Origin: a virus
Length of the DNA stretch: 38,440 nucleotides
Reading direction: 5' to 3' (one strand)
IMG/VR virus record: IMGVR_UViG_3300006737_000069
Coordinates: 1-38,440 of that record
The notes below the pieces were generated by a model. It saw nothing but the letters and a program-made list of their open reading frames with translations. It had not been told where the DNA came from and ran no database searches. Below, piece by piece: positions 5,721-38,214 of this stretch. The stretch's first letter is position 1, and every line of letters begins with the position of its first letter. The translations under genes were made by a program, and so were the position numbers.

Positions 5721-6386
5721 ATGGCACTTACAATTAGTGATACAGGCGGGGGTTCTTTCGAACAAGCACCACAAGGAAACCACAATGCTACATGTTATAG
5801 ACTTGTAGATGTTGGTACACACAATGAAACTTTTGAGGGTGAAACCAAAAAAAGACATAGCATATTTATTTCTTGGGAGCTTAACGATGTCAAAATGGAA
5901 GACGGCAGACCCTTTACGATATTAAAACAATACACGCTTTCTTTAAATGAAAAGTCTGCGTTGTATAAAGACTTATGCCAATGGCGTAAAAAACCTTTTA
6001 CACCAGAAGAGTTACAAGGCTTTGACCTTACAAAAATTTTAGGACTGACTTGCGAACTTGCAATTGGTGAAACCAAAACTGGTAACTCTAAAGTAGTTAA
6101 TGTGTTTGCACCTGATGGTGGTGCAAAAAAACAACCTACTGTAAATGAGGTTGTTGCTTTTGACATAGACGAATATATAAACGGTAACAAAGATATGATT
6201 GGCGTATGGGTGGATTTACCTAGTTGGTTACAAACTAAAATAGATGATTCTATTGAAGTTAAAACTAAAGATAACAAACCAAGTGATAAGTCTGAGTTTG
6301 AATCTTTAGATTCAATGAACCAAGAAAAAGCTTTTCCATCTGACGAAGAACTTGCAGATGATGAAGACGAATCATTGCCGTTTTAA
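5721..6386 (+). CDS. SSB-like single-stranded DNA-binding protein with acidic C-terminal tip
   Basis: 221 aa. The body matches a phage family I remember as following primases and preceding recombination nucleases: a GGGSFEQAP start, a THNETFEG strand, SIFISWEL, GRPFTILKQYTLSL and WRKKPFTPEEL. The C-terminal 35 residues are disordered and very acidic and end DEDESLPF, closely resembling the DDDIPF tip by which bacterial SSBs recruit partner proteins. The likely role is coating single strands during replication or recombination and recruiting enzymes. The ribosome-binding site AAGGAGATATAG is near perfect. The nuclease gene follows after two bases. The family assignment is from memory; the tail is seen directly. 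Confidence 0.75.
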   Translation: MALTISDTGGGSFEQAPQGNHNATCYRLVDVGTHNETFEGETKKRHSIFISWELNDVKMEDGRPFTILKQYTLSLNEKSALYKDLCQWRKKPFTPEELQGFDLTKILGLTCELAIGETKTGNSKVVNVFAPDGGAKKQPTVNEVVAFDIDEYINGNKDMIGVWVDLPSWLQTKIDDSIEVKTKDNKPSDKSEFESLDSMNQEKAFPSDEELADDEDESLPF

Positions 6387-6388
6387 TA

Positions 6389-7207
6389 GTGGATAACGTA
6401 ATCAAGTTTACTCCCAAGGATAGTGTTGAGGTAATTGAAGAAGGCATCTATTTAGACATGCCTTTTAATAAATACAATGACCTCGATGCTATACGTTCTC
6501 ACGACTTAACATCTTTTATAAAAGACCCATACACATGGAAGTATGAAGAAAAGCCTAACAGTGAAGCAAGCTTCTTTGTAGAAGGTAGATTGCAACATTG
6601 TTTGTTTTTAGAACCACATGTGTTTCACGATGAGTTTGTGGTAGCGCCACAGGTGGATAAAAGAACTAAAGCAGGTAAAGAAGCTTACGAAGATTTTATG
6701 GCATCTGTTAACGACAGAAGTGTAGTATCGCAAGACCTATACGATGCTTGTCAAGGCAGAGTAGAAGTTTTAGATGCTTTCAAACCACAAAAGGATGATA
6801 AGACTGAGGTAAGTATTGTTTTTGATTATTATGGTCATTTGTGTAAAGCACGATTTGATATGTTGCAAAACAATGTCATTATTGATTTGAAAACTTGTAG
6901 AGATGCTAGTCCGTCTGGGTTTAAAAGAGCCATTCGCAACTTTGGTTATCATCAACAGGCTGCGTTTTATTTAGATGCGGCAGCATCAGTTGGCCTAATT
7001 GACGTTGATAGGTTTCAGTTTTTGGCAATACAAAAGACACAACCATATCCGTATGCAGTATATGAGCTTAGTCCTGAGTCAGTAGAATACGGCAGGTCGC
7101 TAAACGAAAAAGCAATAGAACAAATGCAGTTATGTAAAAAGACAGGAATCTACACGCCATTCAATTTGCATAATAAAATCGTTGAAGTGCATTTAACAGA
7201 TTTATAA
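6389..7207 (+). CDS. RecE/YqaJ-like PD-(D/E)XK exonuclease
   Basis: 272 aa starting with GTG two bases after the SSB-like stop, so coupled to it. The core of an exonuclease VIII-type fold is visible: SFFVEGRLQHCLFLEP (61-76, with the conserved His70), Asp157 in CKARFDML, then IIDLKTC with Asp166 and Lys168, and YHQQAAFYLD (187-196). Such enzymes resect double-stranded ends so that strands can be annealed or invaded. With the adjacent SSB-like protein it forms a recombination module, though no annealing protein of the Redβ/RecT/Erf type is seen here. The family's usual length fits a complete nuclease domain without the long N-terminal part of E. coli RecE. Confidence 0.85.
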   Translation: MDNVIKFTPKDSVEVIEEGIYLDMPFNKYNDLDAIRSHDLTSFIKDPYTWKYEEKPNSEASFFVEGRLQHCLFLEPHVFHDEFVVAPQVDKRTKAGKEAYEDFMASVNDRSVVSQDLYDACQGRVEVLDAFKPQKDDKTEVSIVFDYYGHLCKARFDMLQNNVIIDLKTCRDASPSGFKRAIRNFGYHQQAAFYLDAAASVGLIDVDRFQFLAIQKTQPYPYAVYELSPESVEYGRSLNEKAIEQMQLCKKTGIYTPFNLHNKIVEVHLTDL

Positions 7208-31371: not shown

Positions 31372-32856
31372 TTAATAATATGACAAAGCTGTTCTATCTA
31401 CTTGCATATCTTCTTGATAGTCGCTATCTAACTCCACTAAACCACCTTGTCTTATTCGCATTAAAGCCATAGTGGTAGAGTCACAAAAGTCATCATTTTC
31501 TCCAAAGGGAAAAGCAGCTAACTCTTCTATTACTTCTTCTGCAAAAGCATCTTCTGTAGCATATACCATACCACTTTCAAACATAGGTGCAATAGAGTTC
31601 ATTCTTGCAACCTTGTCTTGTCCTCTACTAGGCGAGTAAGCTTGCACAGGTATTCCTATTTTTCTAAGTTCTTGTGTTAAAGGTGTACCACTAGCTTTGG
31701 CCTCTATTAAAACTATGTCTGGCTCCCAATACTTATATTCCTCTAATGCTATATTTTTCAGTTGTGGAAAGTCTACTCTGTGTCTACTAGCATCTAACAA
31801 TATAATTGCATGTTCGCTACCATCTTCAGGGTCAAATATTCCCCAAGTCGTTATAGCAGAATAGTCTGCTGTTTCTTTTGCGCTAAAAGCAGTATCGTAA
31901 CTTTGCACGATACACTGACAACTAGGTATAGCTTCATTCTCCCATTTCTGCCACCATTCTCTTTTAACTATAGAACCGCTTTCTGCGGTTGGGTTTTGCA
32001 TCCATTGTGCGTTCCATTTGCTTATCGGCAAAGATGCTTTTACTGATAACAATTCCTCTTTCTTCCAAAACTCTTTCCACAAAGGTTCTTCTGAATCAGG
32101 CATGATAGCTGGAAACTCAACTACTTCCCATTGGTCTGCGTGTGTTTCAGATTGTCTTTTAAGCAATCTGCCAGCCAAATCTTTTGTACTCCAACGAGTC
32201 ATAACCAAAACGATGGTGCCGCCGGGCTGCAATCTTTGGCGTGGTCCACTTGTGTACCACTCCCAAGCTGCATCCATTGCAGTCGGCGACATTGCATCTT
32301 GTTCTGAATGAGGGTCATCTATAATTAATAAATCAGCACCACGTCCTGTTATAGCGCCACCAACACCTGAATAGAAAGCTTCACCACCATCATCTGTAGT
32401 CCATCTACCAGCAGACTTATTATCACCTGACAAATTTATGTCAGGAAATATGGTTTGATACTCTTCGCTGTCTATAATATTACGCACTCTTCTACCAAAT
32501 CGCACAGCAAGTTCTGCCGTGTGTGTCGCTTGTATTATTTTTAAACTTGGATTAAGTCCCATCATCCAAGCAGGAAAATATGTAGATGCAAACTCTGATT
32601 TGGTATGTCTAGGTGGCAACATAACCATAAGTCTTTTGCACTTACCTTGTGCTATACGGTTTAGTTTTTTTGCGAGAACTTTATGATGTCTACCCATGAT
32701 AAAGCCATCCCATTGATGTTTTACAAACTCTAAAAAGTCAGACTTACATTTGTCTCTAGCATTTAGATTCTTCCACTTATCAATTAGGGTTAAAGCTTCT
32801 ACTTGCTCATCCCTAGACAAAGCGTCAAAAGATTTAATTTTATCTAAATCAATCAT
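31372..32856 (-). CDS. terL: Terminase large subunit
   Basis: 494 aa from ATG 32856; a TTG five codons upstream is an alternative, and neither has a good ribosome-binding site. The ATPase half has PPRHTKSE (81-88, Walker A-like with the Arg/His form of phage terminases), LKIIQATHTAELAVRFGRRV and LLIIDDP (176-182, Walker B with catalytic acid), then IVLVMTRWSTKDLAGRL. The nuclease half contains QSYDTAFSAKETADYSAITT and PDIVLIEAKASGTPLTQEL, the acidic residues of the RNase H-like fold. It pumps DNA into the prohead and cuts it. No small subunit gene is recognised nearby. Confidence 0.95.
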   Translation of the reverse strand: MIDLDKIKSFDALSRDEQVEALTLIDKWKNLNARDKCKSDFLEFVKHQWDGFIMGRHHKVLAKKLNRIAQGKCKRLMVMLPPRHTKSEFASTYFPAWMMGLNPSLKIIQATHTAELAVRFGRRVRNIIDSEEYQTIFPDINLSGDNKSAGRWTTDDGGEAFYSGVGGAITGRGADLLIIDDPHSEQDAMSPTAMDAAWEWYTSGPRQRLQPGGTIVLVMTRWSTKDLAGRLLKRQSETHADQWEVVEFPAIMPDSEEPLWKEFWKKEELLSVKASLPISKWNAQWMQNPTAESGSIVKREWWQKWENEAIPSCQCIVQSYDTAFSAKETADYSAITTWGIFDPEDGSEHAIILLDASRHRVDFPQLKNIALEEYKYWEPDIVLIEAKASGTPLTQELRKIGIPVQAYSPSRGQDKVARMNSIAPMFESGMVYATEDAFAEEVIEELAAFPFGENDDFCDSTTMALMRIRQGGLVELDSDYQEDMQVDRTALSYY

Positions 32857-32897
32857 AAGGTGGAGAGCCAATAAGTATAATTAGAGGACAAAATTGA

Positions 32898-33434: not shown

Positions 33435-33914
33435 CTAGTCTCCTTTTTCAGGAGAGTGAGATGCTCCAAAATAGAACGAAATAATTGCACTAGCTAATCC
33501 TCCAAGATAACCTAACACTAGATTAATTAAGGCTTCAGAGTTTTGTTCTGGTGGTTGTAGTGTTACTAAAAATATGTAGCCTAAAAAACCGCCTATTGTA
33601 AATAACCCTATGATTCTTGCAGTCCAATCTTTACTAAACATGCCTCTAGCATGTTGTTTGTCTTGTGTTTCTAGCTTAAACACATCTACATCAAGCTCTT
33701 TCATTTGAACCTCAAACTCCTGTTCTGCTTTTTTAAGCTCTAACATTTGTTCAGGTGTAGCATTTTGCATAGCTTGTTGTATAGATTTTTGGTCATTAGA
33801 TACACCAAGAACTTGTGCTATTTTGCCCATAGCCATATTGCCTAAGGGACCACCCATAGCTGAACCTAGTGTTGGAGCCACAGCACCAACTATATTTTTT
33901 AGTAATCCTTTCAT
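33435..33914 (-). CDS. Holin-type protein (GTA 3TM holin-like)
   Basis: 159 aa. A Gly/Ala-rich amphipathic N-terminus (IVGAVAPTLGSAMGGPLGNM) and a charged helix (PEQMLELKKAEQEFEVQMKE) precede two clear membrane spans, about 99-119 (RIIGLFTIGGFLGYIFLV) and 126-148 (INLVLGYLGGLASAIISFYF). This arrangement matches the three-segment holin family known from gene transfer agents and marine phages. It overlaps the preceding gene by four bases and leads directly to the lysozyme. It would permeabilise the inner membrane at lysis. Confidence 0.82.
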   Translation of the reverse strand: MKGLLKNIVGAVAPTLGSAMGGPLGNMAMGKIAQVLGVSNDQKSIQQAMQNATPEQMLELKKAEQEFEVQMKELDVDVFKLETQDKQHARGMFSKDWTARIIGLFTIGGFLGYIFLVTLQPPEQNSEALINLVLGYLGGLASAIISFYFGASHSPEKGD

Positions 33915-34126
33915 ATTAATATGCTCGTTAAGACTGCTATACCTATCGCACCAAGAAAGCCAAACACACCAAAAGTGGTGGCTTTAATTGTTGAATTGAT
34001 AAGAGTTATTTCTTGTTTTATGTCAGAAAACTCGTTAAATGCTGTTTTCCAACGCTCGTGAGATATTGTTTCTAACTTTGTAAGTCTTTCTGCAACATCA
34101 TTGACTGTCATTTTTTTATTAACCAT
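33911..34126 (-). CDS. XhlA-like small membrane protein of the lysis cassette
   Basis: 71 aa: a coiled-coil N-terminal part (TVNDVAERLTKLETISHERW, then IKQEITLINSTIK) and one C-terminal membrane span (TTFGVFGFLGAIGIAVLTSI). The layout recalls XhlA-type holin accessory proteins with a cytoplasmic coiled coil. It lies five bases after the cyclase stop and four bases into the next gene. It may be a second holin or an antiholin. Confidence 0.72.
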   Translation of the reverse strand: MVNKKMTVNDVAERLTKLETISHERWKTAFNEFSDIKQEITLINSTIKATTFGVFGFLGAIGIAVLTSILI

Positions 34127-34131
34127 AATTT

Positions 34132-35883
34132 TTATATAGTAAAAATTTTCAGAGGTTTACTTTTGCCTTTAACCTTTATTGGCTTTAATGATTTTAACTT
34201 ATTATTAACACTTTGTGCAGTATTTTCTCCAATAAGTATATCTACGCCAACTTCTTTTGTTGCAGACTCTAGTCTAGCTGCTGTGTTTACAGCATCGCCA
34301 ATGGCCGAATAGTCGAACCGGGTGTCGCTACCTACATTTGCTATTACTGCTTCACCTGTATTAACGCCCACGCCAATAGCTATTTCATGTGGCAGTTCTT
34401 TGTTCAGTTCTTTTATGGCTTCTTGTATTTCAATAGCTGTCTTAACAGCAAGCTCTGCATGGTTTTCTAAGTCTAACGGTGCGTTAAAAATTCCCATTGC
34501 CGCGTCACCGATAAATTTGTCTAGCATCCCTTTATTACGCTGTATACACTCAACTTGCACTGTTAAAGCTTTGTTCATAATTTCTGTGACTTCTTCTGGC
34601 TCTAGTGTTTCTGACAAAGAAGTGAAGCCACGCACATCAGTGAAGAGAAAAGAGCAAAGCCTTCTCTCACCACCTAGCTTTAACAATTCAGGATTGTCTT
34701 GTAGTCTTTTTACCTGTCTTGGGTCTAAGTAATGCTCAAACTGTTTTTTGATTTGTAATCGTAATTTAAACTGTTGTCTAAATCTCAGATAAAAAGCTAT
34801 GGCTCCTGTAATAAAACTTGCGACCAATGTCCACGTTATATCTATTAATAATCCATCTTGTATAAGCCAATAACCACCATAAGCTAAAGCTGTTGTAAAA
34901 ATAGCATAGCTTATTACTCCTAGTGTCATGCCTAACAAATGTATTAAAAACCATGTGGCTGTAACTGATATTATAAAAATACCCATTTCTGCGGCTAAAG
35001 ACCAATCTGGTATGTAGGGCGAATCTTGTATTAATATAGATTCTGCTAGAGCGGCTTGTATTTTATGTGTCTCTAACAAACCCACAGCCGTAGAAATTTG
35101 CGGCATCACACCGTTAGCAGTAACACCCAAAAATACAAACTTATTTGCTACACTCATTTCTTGAAGTGTAGTTTGTGGTGTGTCTACCCAGCTAATCCAC
35201 TTACGACCAAGACTATCTGTTTTAACTGGTGGTATTCCTCGTATTGATATTTCTTCTATACCATTATCATTAGTTTTTATAATGTAAGTTTTTACATCAA
35301 ACAAAGCCTTATATATTTGTGTTCCAAAACTGGGAATCCACTCGCCGTTAGGTGTGCTTACCAATAAAGGTATTCTACGAACGAGTTGGTCAACCTCAGT
35401 TGGTGCAATGGCCAATCCTTGCAAGGCACTATTAGCTAACACATCTATGTTTTGCACTACTCCTTGTGAGACCAAACCTTGTGCTTTGTCACCCATAATT
35501 ACTGTGCCTGTGGCGTTTGGATATTCTCCGCTTGCATTTTCAAACATTGCTAATACTGAGGGTGCATATTGTAAAACTTGTGCAAAAATATCATCACCAC
35601 CCATACGGTCAGGTTGTGGATAGCTTATAACATGACCAACTCCAATAGCTCCTTCGTTGATTAAATCTATCTGTATTTGTGCAAGTGTTTTTCTAGGAAA
35701 AGGCCAACCACCCATATTAGCAACATCTTCTTCAGTAATATTTAGTATGACAAAATTACCTGATTCAGGTTGTTCTTTTACAAAGGCATCAAAGGTTTTA
35801 AGTTTTAGTATTTCTGTTGGTGTAGATTGAAACACCAAGGGTAAGGCTAGTATGGGTAGTATTAATAGTATTAGCTTTTTAAT
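34132..35883 (-). CDS. CHASE2-domain class III adenylate/guanylate cyclase, membrane-bound, probable AUU start
   Basis: 583 aa when read from ATT 35883, which follows GGAGAAACA and gives MKK-LILLILPILALPLVF, a signal anchor; the first ordinary start in frame is TTG 35838, which would lose it. Order: N-terminal span, periplasmic CHASE2 sensor (about 20-285, with ILNITEEDVANMGGWPFPRK), three membrane spans (about 297-318, 319-341, 345-367), then a class III cyclase. The cyclase has metal-binding Asp416 in FTDVRGFT and Asp460 in KFIGDAAMGIF, Lys456, and GDAVNTAARLE with Asn533 and Arg537, so all key residues for catalysis are present. The adenine-Asp site is Ser (YSAIG), as in class IIIb. Makes cAMP (or cGMP). 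The overlap with the 98-aa gene and the lysis genes 5 bases on show it is part of the phage operon. Confidence 0.92.
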   Translation of the reverse strand: MKKLILLILPILALPLVFQSTPTEILKLKTFDAFVKEQPESGNFVILNITEEDVANMGGWPFPRKTLAQIQIDLINEGAIGVGHVISYPQPDRMGGDDIFAQVLQYAPSVLAMFENASGEYPNATGTVIMGDKAQGLVSQGVVQNIDVLANSALQGLAIAPTEVDQLVRRIPLLVSTPNGEWIPSFGTQIYKALFDVKTYIIKTNDNGIEEISIRGIPPVKTDSLGRKWISWVDTPQTTLQEMSVANKFVFLGVTANGVMPQISTAVGLLETHKIQAALAESILIQDSPYIPDWSLAAEMGIFIISVTATWFLIHLLGMTLGVISYAIFTTALAYGGYWLIQDGLLIDITWTLVASFITGAIAFYLRFRQQFKLRLQIKKQFEHYLDPRQVKRLQDNPELLKLGGERRLCSFLFTDVRGFTSLSETLEPEEVTEIMNKALTVQVECIQRNKGMLDKFIGDAAMGIFNAPLDLENHAELAVKTAIEIQEAIKELNKELPHEIAIGVGVNTGEAVIANVGSDTRFDYSAIGDAVNTAARLESATKEVGVDILIGENTAQSVNNKLKSLKPIKVKGKSKPLKIFTI

Positions 35884-36167
35884 TGTTTCTCCTCTAAAAC
35901 CCTAAATGATTTAAGCTGTTGTATGTCATCCCATTTAGACCTTTTAATTTTAGTCCAATGATTCGCTCTATGTGTGCTTAAATAGGTTGGTCTTATTTTA
36001 ACCCATTTCCAACCAATATCGCCAATTTCAAAATGATGGTAGCCATGCGATAATTTGTTGGCTAAAGTTGGGTCGTTGTAAAACCTAACAATATCTCTAG
36101 GCTTTTTTGCATCTGGGTGTTGTTTTATATCTTTAAACTTAGGGTATTTTTTTATAGATTGTTTCAT
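35871..36167 (-). CDS. 98-aa basic protein of unknown function
   Basis: A basic, aromatic and His-rich protein (KKYPKFKDIKQHPDAKKPRD, GYHHFEIGDIGWKWVKIRPT, STHRANHWTKIKRSKWDDIQ). There is no membrane span or known motif. Its last codons overlap the ribosome-binding site and first codons of the cyclase, so its translation may set cyclase expression, including use of the rare AUU start. Two bases separate it from the 73-aa gene. Possibly nucleic-acid-binding by charge. Confidence 0.68.
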   Translation of the reverse strand: MKQSIKKYPKFKDIKQHPDAKKPRDIVRFYNDPTLANKLSHGYHHFEIGDIGWKWVKIRPTYLSTHRANHWTKIKRSKWDDIQQLKSFRVLEEKQLKS

Positions 36168-36169
36168 GC

Positions 36170-36391
36170 TTACACCATGTATTTTTTTCCTTTTTCAAAA
36201 AGAGCTTTCATTTTTGCAGGATATTCTTTTTGATTTCTACAGGCGTTTTGAGAACGCAGCAAAATACGTTCAAAGTTTTCTATCTCTAGCAACGACTCAT
36301 CTTTTGCAACAAGTGATTCAAAAATGTTTTTGACAAGTTTTGTTTCACTCCAGTTTAAATGTACGTTACATGAATGTTTATCTCTACTCAT
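36170..36391 (-). CDS. 73-aa protein of unknown function, first gene behind the strong promoter
   Basis: A soluble helical protein (ETKLVKNIFESLVAKDESLL, then IENFERILLRSQNACRNQKE) ending in KKYMV. Two cysteines but no metal motif. An AGGA sequence lies seven or eight bases before the ATG, and the near-consensus promoter at 36421-36448 is 30 bases upstream, so this is the promoter-proximal gene of the cyclase-lysis-terminase transcript. No family recognised. Confidence 0.7.
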   Translation of the reverse strand: MSRDKHSCNVHLNWSETKLVKNIFESLVAKDESLLEIENFERILLRSQNACRNQKEYPAKMKALFEKGKKYMV

Positions 36392-36420
36392 ATTTTTTCC
36401 TATATTTTGTTAATTTTTTT

Positions 36421-36448
36421 ATTATAAGGATTGTATAACAGATGTCAA
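36421..36448 (-). promoter_or_regulatory. Consensus sigma70 promoter TTGACA-N16-TATAAT before the cyclase/lysis block
   Basis: On the minus strand a perfect -35 TTGACA (36448-36443) and perfect -10 TATAAT (36426-36421) are 16 bases apart. It shares 11 bases (TCAACACTTTT on the plus strand, 36445-36455) and spacing with the promoter at 2861-2888. It separates the csgG-curlin-FecR genes from the cyclase, lysis and packaging genes. Confidence 0.92.
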
Positions 36449-36461
36449 CACTTTTCTACAC

Positions 36462-37607
36462 TTAATTAGATTGTGTAATTTTTATTATAGAGTCACTACC
36501 ACCATTAATCTTAATAACATTCGATACGCCGTCTTGTATAAAAATGACTGTGTAAGCATTTGAACCATCTAAATCTACTCTTACTGTTTCATTAACTTGT
36601 CTACGCAAACTCACTACATTACCTGTTATAAGCGTGGTTATTTGTGTGTCCGGGTCTTTACCTAATGAAGTCCCGGCTATCTGCGTTGTAGTAGCTTGTG
36701 CTAAAACATCCTCATCTTCATCTACAGCCAAGGCATCTAACACATTTAATAAATCCTCTAAATAATTTACATCAAGATAATTTATATCTAATTCTGTAAA
36801 TTGTAAGCTATCTTCTTTTAAATAATCTTCAGCTAAGTAATCAATATCTAGGTCGTTAAAATCTAATACGCTATCTGTTTGTGTGCTTGTGGCTTCTTCT
36901 TCTACTAAAACCTCTTGTTTGGGTGGTGTGACAATAAGCATGTTGTCTATTAGGTCTAGGGTTAAATCTAAAATTACAGGCTTAGTAGGTGCAGACTCAA
37001 ACACGCTAACTGTAGTAGCTTCATAAGGTTTATTAAGTATTACTGTACCCATCGCTGTTACTACTTCTATTTCACCACTAGATAAACCAAAAGCATCAGG
37101 CAAAAGAATTATTAGACTTCTACCTAATTCATCAACCGTAGCAGTAAAATCAGTACCTCTTATTGCTATATTTGCAGTAGGTGTTTTAAGTTTTATGTTT
37201 TGTTTATCTATACGGTTAAGATTGCCTGTAATAAACCTTGCCGTGCCTAAACCAAATGTTAAAGCCATCTTAGATTTACTAGGGTCCGGGTCAAATATAT
37301 ATGAGTCTATGACAAGTTCAGACCATTCTGTAAGTTTAACTACAGAATCATCTAAAAATTTAATAGCCATGCGACCATCTTTAGTTATGGCCTCATCGTT
37401 GCTCTGTATAGCAAACTTTAAATTAGCATCGTATGGTTTGTCTCGGACAATTTGTGCTGTGCCGTTTAGCTCAGATATGTCACCTATATCAACAGCTTGT
37501 GCTTGTACCTTGGTCGTTTTGAATAATACAAACAGTAGAAGCAGCAGTGCCAGAAACCGAAATAACTTTAAGCCAATCGTTGTCCTGTGTTGATAGCTGT
37601 TGTACAT
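36462..37607 (-). CDS. Secreted FecR-domain protein with curlin-like C-terminus
   Basis: 381 aa. A signal peptide (about 1-38: LFRFLALLLLLFVLF, cleavage near VQAQA) is followed by a FecR domain with SELNGTAQIVRDKPYDANLK, VKLTEWSELVIDSY and the hallmark TANIAIRGTDFTATVDE (144-160). An acidic linker (247-300) repeats LDIDYLAEDYL and LDINYLDVNYL. The last 32 residues carry IFIQDGVSNVIKI and GGSDSIIKITQ, a curlin-like pattern (Q-x-G-x-x-N). FecR-domain proteins are often found beside CHASE2 cyclases in bacterial genomes; here the cyclase is two small genes away. The start at 37607 (AGGACTTTTAATG) is needed for the signal peptide and overlaps the curlin gene by 119 bases. Confidence 0.85.
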   Translation of the reverse strand: MYNSYQHRTTIGLKLFRFLALLLLLFVLFKTTKVQAQAVDIGDISELNGTAQIVRDKPYDANLKFAIQSNDEAITKDGRMAIKFLDDSVVKLTEWSELVIDSYIFDPDPSKSKMALTFGLGTARFITGNLNRIDKQNIKLKTPTANIAIRGTDFTATVDELGRSLIILLPDAFGLSSGEIEVVTAMGTVILNKPYEATTVSVFESAPTKPVILDLTLDLIDNMLIVTPPKQEVLVEEEATSTQTDSVLDFNDLDIDYLAEDYLKEDSLQFTELDINYLDVNYLEDLLNVLDALAVDEDEDVLAQATTTQIAGTSLGKDPDTQITTLITGNVVSLRRQVNETVRVDLDGSNAYTVIFIQDGVSNVIKINGGSDSIIKITQSN

Positions 37608-38214
37608 TAAAAGTCCTAGAGCCTCCTGTGTGGTCTAACCAAAAATATCCACCTGCTGATGCTGTAACACCTGTACCTGTATAGGTAACTGTGTTGTCAC
37701 TACCATCTATATCCATATAGTTTGTAGCACCATCAATATTTATATTTGATGTAACTGTGTTATTTGAACCATTAATAATCCAATCTAAGTCAAGTGATGC
37801 AGCTAATGCTGTTGTGCCTTGATTTAAAGTAAAGGTATTACCGCTACCTGTAACATCGACATTTTGATTAGAGCCGTCAGCACTATAAGTATCTGTTGGG
37901 TCTACTTGTATGGTAAAACTATTTGTACCTCCATCAAACTCATAGAATCCTGTAAAGTTATCTGCAAAAATATCACCTAAAAACTTATTAGTTGCACCAA
38001 TCATATTAATATCAAGTGTCATACTATTACCGTCTAAATCAAAAGCATTGACACTGCCAGCAGTTGAATTTAACCCACCTATAATGTTTGAAATACCAAG
38101 TTGCTCTAAATCAATGTTTGCACCTGTTCCTGACTGGTCAACATATATTTCATTGTCAGCAGCAAAAACCACAAGAGAGCATGCAGCTAGTATGCTTATT
38201 AGTTTATTTTTCAT
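37489..38214 (-). CDS. Secreted curlin-repeat-like protein
   Basis: 241 aa with a signal peptide (KNKLISILAACSLVVFA, residues 2-18). The mature start has YVDQSGTGANIDLEQLGISN, matching the curlin repeat Q-x-G-x(n)-N-x(4)-Q-x-G-x-x-N. Further Asn/Gly/Asp/Thr-rich segments (DGNSMTLDINMIGATNKF, GSGNTFTLNQG, INGSNNTVTSNINIDGATNY, DGSDNTVTYTG) would form stacked beta strands, as in CsgA amyloid. The start lies four bases after csgG and is coupled to it. The most likely path is export by Sec and then through CsgG. The last 39 codons also encode the FecR signal peptide in another frame. Fibre formation is inference. Confidence 0.82.
   Translation of the reverse strand: MKNKLISILAACSLVVFAADNEIYVDQSGTGANIDLEQLGISNIIGGLNSTAGSVNAFDLDGNSMTLDINMIGATNKFLGDIFADNFTGFYEFDGGTNSFTIQVDPTDTYSADGSNQNVDVTGSGNTFTLNQGTTALAASLDLDWIINGSNNTVTSNINIDGATNYMDIDGSDNTVTYTGTGVTASAGGYFWLDHTGGSRTFNVQQLSTQDNDWLKVISVSGTAASTVCIIQNDQGTSTSC

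Follow-up and report, generated by a model that had tools for sequence, protein, structure and literature searches.

A CHASE2 receptor-type class III cyclase gene at the end of the curli/FecR module of a probable SAR11 phage

The cyclase gene and its neighbours

The window, by which we mean the whole stretch of DNA analysed here, is a viral record of 38,440 bases in which the curli/FecR module, the lysis genes and the terminase gene all lie on the minus strand. Two plus-strand ORFs stand among minus-strand genes at 5721-7207, the second of which matches a PDDEXK-like domain (DUF3799). The features of the locus are listed below by coordinate.

31372..32871, minus: large terminase (TerL), HTVC023P-type by TerL identity
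32960..33490, minus: endolysin (phage lysozyme; PF00959, 5e-37)
33435..33914, minus: 159-aa ORF with two C-terminal TM segments, holin-like (phrog_1544; weak GTA_holin_3TM)
33911..34126, minus: 71-aa ORF, possibly lysis-associated, with a single TM segment at its C-terminus (hydropathy; homologues immediately follow the cyclase in many loci)
34132..35883, minus: CHASE2 plus class III adenylate/guanylate cyclase, 583 aa (Pfam, PDB relatives, AF2 model, viral homologues)
34153..34656, minus: class III cyclase catalytic domain, aa 410-577, with D416, K456, D460, S526, N533 and R537 (PF00211, conservation, CyaB/CyaC alignments)
34972..35847, minus: CHASE2 domain, aa 13-304, predicted periplasmic (PF05226, hydropathy, model helices)
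35881..35883, minus: likely near-cognate start ATT (aligned relatives), with an upstream AGAGGAGA and an overlap with the 98-aa ORF at its 3' end
35871..36167, minus: 98-aa ORF between FecR and cyclase, no family (homologues in loci L002, L003 and L012)
36170..36391, minus: 73-aa ORF, no significant family (profile searches)
36421..36448, minus: promoter TTGACA-N16-TATAAT directed toward the cyclase and lysis genes (12/12 consensus)
36462..37607, minus: FecR-domain protein with an N-terminal hydrophobic segment (PF04773, 1.4e-8; phrog_37870, 4.5e-67)
37489..38214, minus: curlin-like repeat protein (homologous to phage curlins)
38219..38440, minus: C-terminus of CsgG, truncated by the end of the contig (NCBIfam, phrog_20175, Pfam)

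The gene order is CsgG end, curlin-like, FecR, two small ORFs, cyclase, two small membrane proteins, lysozyme and TerL. The original prediction had positioned the cyclase correctly but gave no strand, which is minus (35883..34132). The CHASE2 match (PF05226, aa 13-304, 8.5e-25) and the Guanylate_cyc match (PF00211, aa 410-577, 2.3e-21) were both over the curated Pfam cut-offs. The nearest solved relatives were CyaC, Cya2 and P. aeruginosa CyaB, with a Foldseek TM(target) of about 0.8. In the AF2 model (mean pLDDT 86), helices were found at residues 2-18, 295-342 and 350-382, and hydropathy and model together gave a layout of one N-terminal TM helix, CHASE2, a TM bundle and the catalytic output domain, which is that of a CHASE2 receptor. 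The catalytic domain is predicted to be cytoplasmic and CHASE2 periplasmic.

Metal-binding Asp416 and Asp460, together with Lys456 and Arg537, were kept in 83/83 aligned phage homologues. The transition-state Asn533 was kept in 82 of these 83, Melnitz having Ser, and the second base-contact position (S526) was Ser, Thr or Asp across the set. The fold, the two metal Asp, the base selector and the transition-state Asn and Arg of a class III cyclase were thus all found, and the earlier description of an intact membrane sensor-cyclase is borne out at the level of sequence, since both Pfam domains are over cut-off and all catalytic residues are present. In class III cyclases the Lys selects ATP, and the Arg and Asn act in the transition state. 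The combination of Lys456 with Ser/Thr526 therefore argues for ATP rather than GTP as the substrate, and cAMP should be the product. The dN/dS of the cyclase against four relatives was 0.08-0.14, indicating that the protein is maintained by purifying selection.

Translation of the cyclase likely begins at ATT 35881-35883. The aligned start codon is ATG in most relatives, ATC in L002 and ATT in L051, and each near-cognate start, including that of the window, has a ribosome-binding-like purine run upstream. This sequence is strong in the window, where the start codon lies inside the 3' end of the 98-aa ORF, an arrangement that would suit translational coupling. No Pfam or PADLOC match was obtained for the 98-aa ORF, and the 73-aa ORF was, among the compared loci, present only in the window. 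The promoter between FecR and these small ORFs is a sigma-70 consensus, of which the window holds no second TTGACA-N16-TATAAT copy. In about ten subclade relatives TTGACWTCTGTT...TATAAT was retained with a variable spacer, and TCTGTT after the first hexamer was retained as well. Because the promoter and the small ORFs intervene, co-regulation of the cyclase with FecR appears looser in the window's clade.

The FecR-domain protein, homologous to FecR of Melnitz and HTVC008M, is likely exported; its predicted structure was unusable (pLDDT 36). At 37480-37607 the curlin-like ORF and the FecR ORF share bases in different frames. Where FecR truly starts is uncertain, and in several relatives a stop interrupts the aligned N-terminal stretch of FecR. 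Nearly all phage FecR proteins finish with a curlin-like ITITQS motif (36462-36600, ITITQSD in the window). The match of the FecR C-terminus to the curlin profile was weak (best E 0.0025, Z=100), and that of the N-terminal part was 0.12. The Curlin_rpt match of the curlin-like protein was below cut-off in the window (E 0.22) and over cut-off in Melnitz. The CsgG fragment matched NCBIfam CsgG at 3e-13, under the full-length cut-off, phrog_20175 at 5e-12 and Pfam CsgG at 0.0035.

On the other side, 5 bases separate the cyclase stop (ending at 34132) from the ATG of the 71-aa ORF (34126). This gap is as originally reported for holin-type genes. The holin identity itself received weak support, because the GTA_holin_3TM matches of the 159-aa ORF (E 0.075) and of its homologue in L034 (0.0058) were both under cut-off; the 71-aa ORF matched no family. 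The window carries the TerL and the portal of the HTVC023P-type podovirus lineage, its TerL being 60% identical to that of 023Pt_psg01 and 57% to those of HTVC027P and HTVC023P, and its portal 47-52% identical to those of HTVC023P, HTVC027P and 023Pt_psg01. Because these proteins are closest to HTVC023P-type podoviruses, the host of this marine phage is probably SAR11.

Linkage of the cyclase to curli, FecR and lysis genes

A scan of viral contigs gave at least 597 stretches that encode relatives of the cyclase; 80 loci were kept, and the linkage counts use only kept loci with enough flank. Upstream of the cyclase, CsgF was present in 27/27 loci, CsgG in 31/31, a curlin-like gene in 39/39 and FecR in 52/53, a linkage that is near-universal in these sequences. 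The order CsgF-CsgG-curlin-FecR(-curlin)-AC is complete in L002 and other relatives, and the window follows it from the CsgG end to the cyclase (AC). By this conserved linkage the cyclase is the last gene of the pelagiphage T8SS (curli) module. The gene, once described as lying inside the lysis operon, is thus better seen as closing a curli/FecR module, with the lysis genes directly beyond it. A TerL homologue was found near the cyclase in only 8/31 loci, indicating that several phage lineages share the curli-cyclase module.

Chimeric assembly was ruled out. Both joints that needed confirmation (34126-34132 and 36391-36462) recur in L002, whose cyclase is 87% identical, the joint between the cyclase and the 71-aa ORF recurs in many further loci, and the same gene order is found in many loci. 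The arrangement was also found in related phages, as the original prediction had proposed to check, with linkage conserved across the kept viral loci.

The statement that no characterised phage has a CHASE2 cyclase did not hold. Cultured Pelagibacter phage HTVC008M (AGE60353.1) and Methylophilales phage Melnitz both have one, 34% and 30% identical, respectively, to that of the window over 96%, and likewise placed after FecR and curlin genes. Both are myophages, and in both a second curlin-like gene stands between FecR and the cyclase. A T8SS module with FecR and adenylate cyclase was described in 2022 in HTVC023P-type podoviruses and pelagimyophages, some modules lacking AC, and its transfer between viral families was proposed; a histidine kinase was placed upstream of CsgF and CHASE2 was not mentioned (PMC9599517). 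In L002, no obvious kinase was seen upstream of CsgF, the translated ORFs being read by eye only. The module with adenylate cyclase is therefore already published, and the presence of the cyclase in phages is not new. Of the published order, CsgF-CsgG-CsgA/B-FecR-AC, the window shares the part from CsgG to AC, and by TerL it shares the phage type. It differs in that the contig end cuts the module at CsgG, FecR and the cyclase are separated by a promoter and two small ORFs, and the cyclase seems to start at ATT. What is added here, within the sampled genomes, is the cellular pairing of FecR with CHASE2, the cAMP gap of SAR11, and the subclade promoter and ATT start.

A lysozyme gene was found downstream of the cyclase in 47/50 kept viral loci. 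Because of these neighbouring genes and the promoter, which in the window's clade reads through the cyclase into the lysis genes, the main rival explanation is a lysis-timing switch, in which the cyclase would sense the periplasm or envelope and cAMP would set when the adjacent holin and endolysin genes act. A lysis-control role has also been proposed for CsgGF by the authors of Melnitz (PMC9004378). However, no annotated lysis genes follow the module within the 12 kb examined in HTVC008M and Melnitz; HTVC008M has a gene for a baseplate hub/tail lysozyme roughly 9 kb further along. The downstream holin-like genes vary, homologues of the 71-aa and 159-aa ORFs lying downstream of the cyclase in only 28/73 loci, and no cAMP-responsive part was found in 17 phage records. 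The adjacency to lysozyme is thus in keeping with the lysis-timing role first suggested, but the tightest association of the cyclase is with FecR and curli rather than with lysis, and we consider this explanation unlikely.

The FecR-CHASE2 pair in cellular genomes and the origin of the module

In Alphaproteobacteria, a FecR ORF lay within about 1.5 kb of a CHASE2 cyclase in 7/29 loci, compared with 0/43 control loci, which had been fetched for other reasons. Among larger cellular regions, FecR was within about 8 kb of the CHASE2 cyclase in 12 of 20. As in the phages, the FecR ORF of such alphaproteobacterial loci (e.g. L142, L136 and L127) adjoins a homologous CHASE2 cyclase; unlike the phage modules, these loci are cellular and have no nearby curli genes, and surface domains, Ig/cadherin or other, are often part of the same protein as FecR. 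Six such cellular FecR proteins comprised three with Ig/cadherin-type domains (one of them with a nidogen-like domain as well), one with Calx-beta and VWA (von Willebrand) domains, and two with FecR only. A literature search found nothing on FecR-domain adhesins with adenylate cyclase, and the accessible parts of the literature naming CHASE2, FecR and cyclase together held nothing on this pairing.

CsgG was absent from all 20 cellular CHASE2 regions, and neither FecR nor cyclase was found within about 9 kb of five cellular curli loci. Since the FecR-CHASE2 pairing lies apart from curli loci in the sampled cells, the phage module appears to have joined a curli set to a second set made up of FecR and the CHASE2 cyclase. 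On the same counts, a cellular curli operon was rejected as the direct source of the whole module, within a cellular sample of 385 genomes in which a rare intact donor with both sets could be missed. In a tree made by a quick method, one branch (SH-aLRT 99) split 18 phage from 26 cellular cyclases. A scan of genome contigs gave only three loci, L084, L085 and L086. Of these, L084 is viral, a phage contig binned in a Pelagibacter MAG, and L086 has the curli module. In L085 (1-4589), from a Neomarinimicrobiota MAG, curlin, FecR and cyclase genes were found with 54% identity, the contig being otherwise unclassified.

Since FecR and the CHASE2 cyclase form a pre-existing cellular pair, and since modules without AC are known (PMC9599517), the cyclase might be a passenger, acquired along with FecR and of no real importance to the phage. 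The low dN/dS and the catalytic metal residues kept in every aligned phage homologue speak against this, and we regard it as quite improbable.

cAMP in SAR11 and the proposed role of the cyclase

The CHASE2 cyclases CyaD1, CyaD2 and CyaK of Sinorhizobium meliloti, likened here by description, also join a CHASE2 receptor to a class III output. They are a precedent for CHASE2 cyclases signalled via an outer-membrane protein, and CyaD1 without CHASE2 gives constitutive cAMP production. They differ from the phage cyclase in being chromosomal and in acting through Clr, of the CRP family, with NsrA.

The cAMP machinery of the presumed host was surveyed in 147 SAR11-family genomes, of which the completeness is not known and the family assignment is inferred. 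No class I cyclase was found in the 147 genomes, and a class III cyclase match was found in three: in G001 it is the phage contig L084, in G049 it lies on a contig with the module, and the third is weak. Two module-bearing phage contigs, L084 and L148, were binned in SAR11-family MAGs, and through such bins SAR11 would seem to own a class III cyclase. A cNMP-binding domain was found in 9/147 genomes and was CRP-sized in 3; none was found in the 17 phage records. In G012 and G019, of the SAR11 family, open frames of 683 and 666 aa gave CHASE2-like matches and no cyclase-family match.

Control by cAMP-CRP is common in other bacteria. This general point and the intact adenylyl-type active site would favour host reprogramming, in which CRP-type regulons of the host would be driven by cAMP from the cyclase; a rise in host cAMP was one option in the original prediction. 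However, the absence of class I and class III cyclases from the sampled SAR11-family genomes outside phage-module contigs and one weak match, together with the rarity of CRP-like proteins, disfavours a host CRP circuit as the target of cAMP, and host reprogramming is very unlikely. A role in defence or anti-defence, in which the product would belong to or interfere with cyclic-nucleotide immunity of the Pycsar type, was also considered. The catalytic domain is hit by PADLOC PycC profiles (1.6e-26), but only over the class III fold, which is generic, and a PycC identity was set aside for that reason. The linkage, moreover, is to curli genes, and no PADLOC effector was matched among the five neighbouring proteins scanned, so that the Pycsar arrangement was not found. 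No specific evidence was found for the earlier suggestion that the cyclase opposes such immunity, and this role seems most improbable.

The reading we favour, to which we give an even chance, is that a functional CHASE2 receptor cyclase ends the phage curli module and, with FecR, signals the state of the fibre or envelope through cAMP at a late stage of infection. A periplasmic sensing pair may be formed by CHASE2 and the exported FecR-domain protein, because the two are paired with secreted adhesins in Alphaproteobacteria. This pair would read the state of a phage-made surface fibre or of the envelope and would turn what it senses into cAMP within the infected cell at that stage. The target of cAMP would probably be other than a CRP-type host regulator. 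Given the absence of a cNMP-binding domain from the phage records and the rarity of CRP-sized proteins in SAR11, the signalling readout is a proposal only. It is possible, if doubtful, that the phage thereby places a cAMP sensor in a host lineage nearly without cAMP enzymes or CRP receptors, acting through an undescribed phage or host effector and perhaps tying fibre state to lysis.

SAR11 cells are among the most abundant in the ocean, and such phage modules are widespread. The cyclase is of note mainly because SAR11 seems to have almost no cyclic-AMP machinery of its own. If the phage brings a working cAMP sensor to SAR11, there would be a cAMP target there to find, and the reason why phages carry curli genes would become testable: the sensor may tell the phage whether its fibre is made or has met something.
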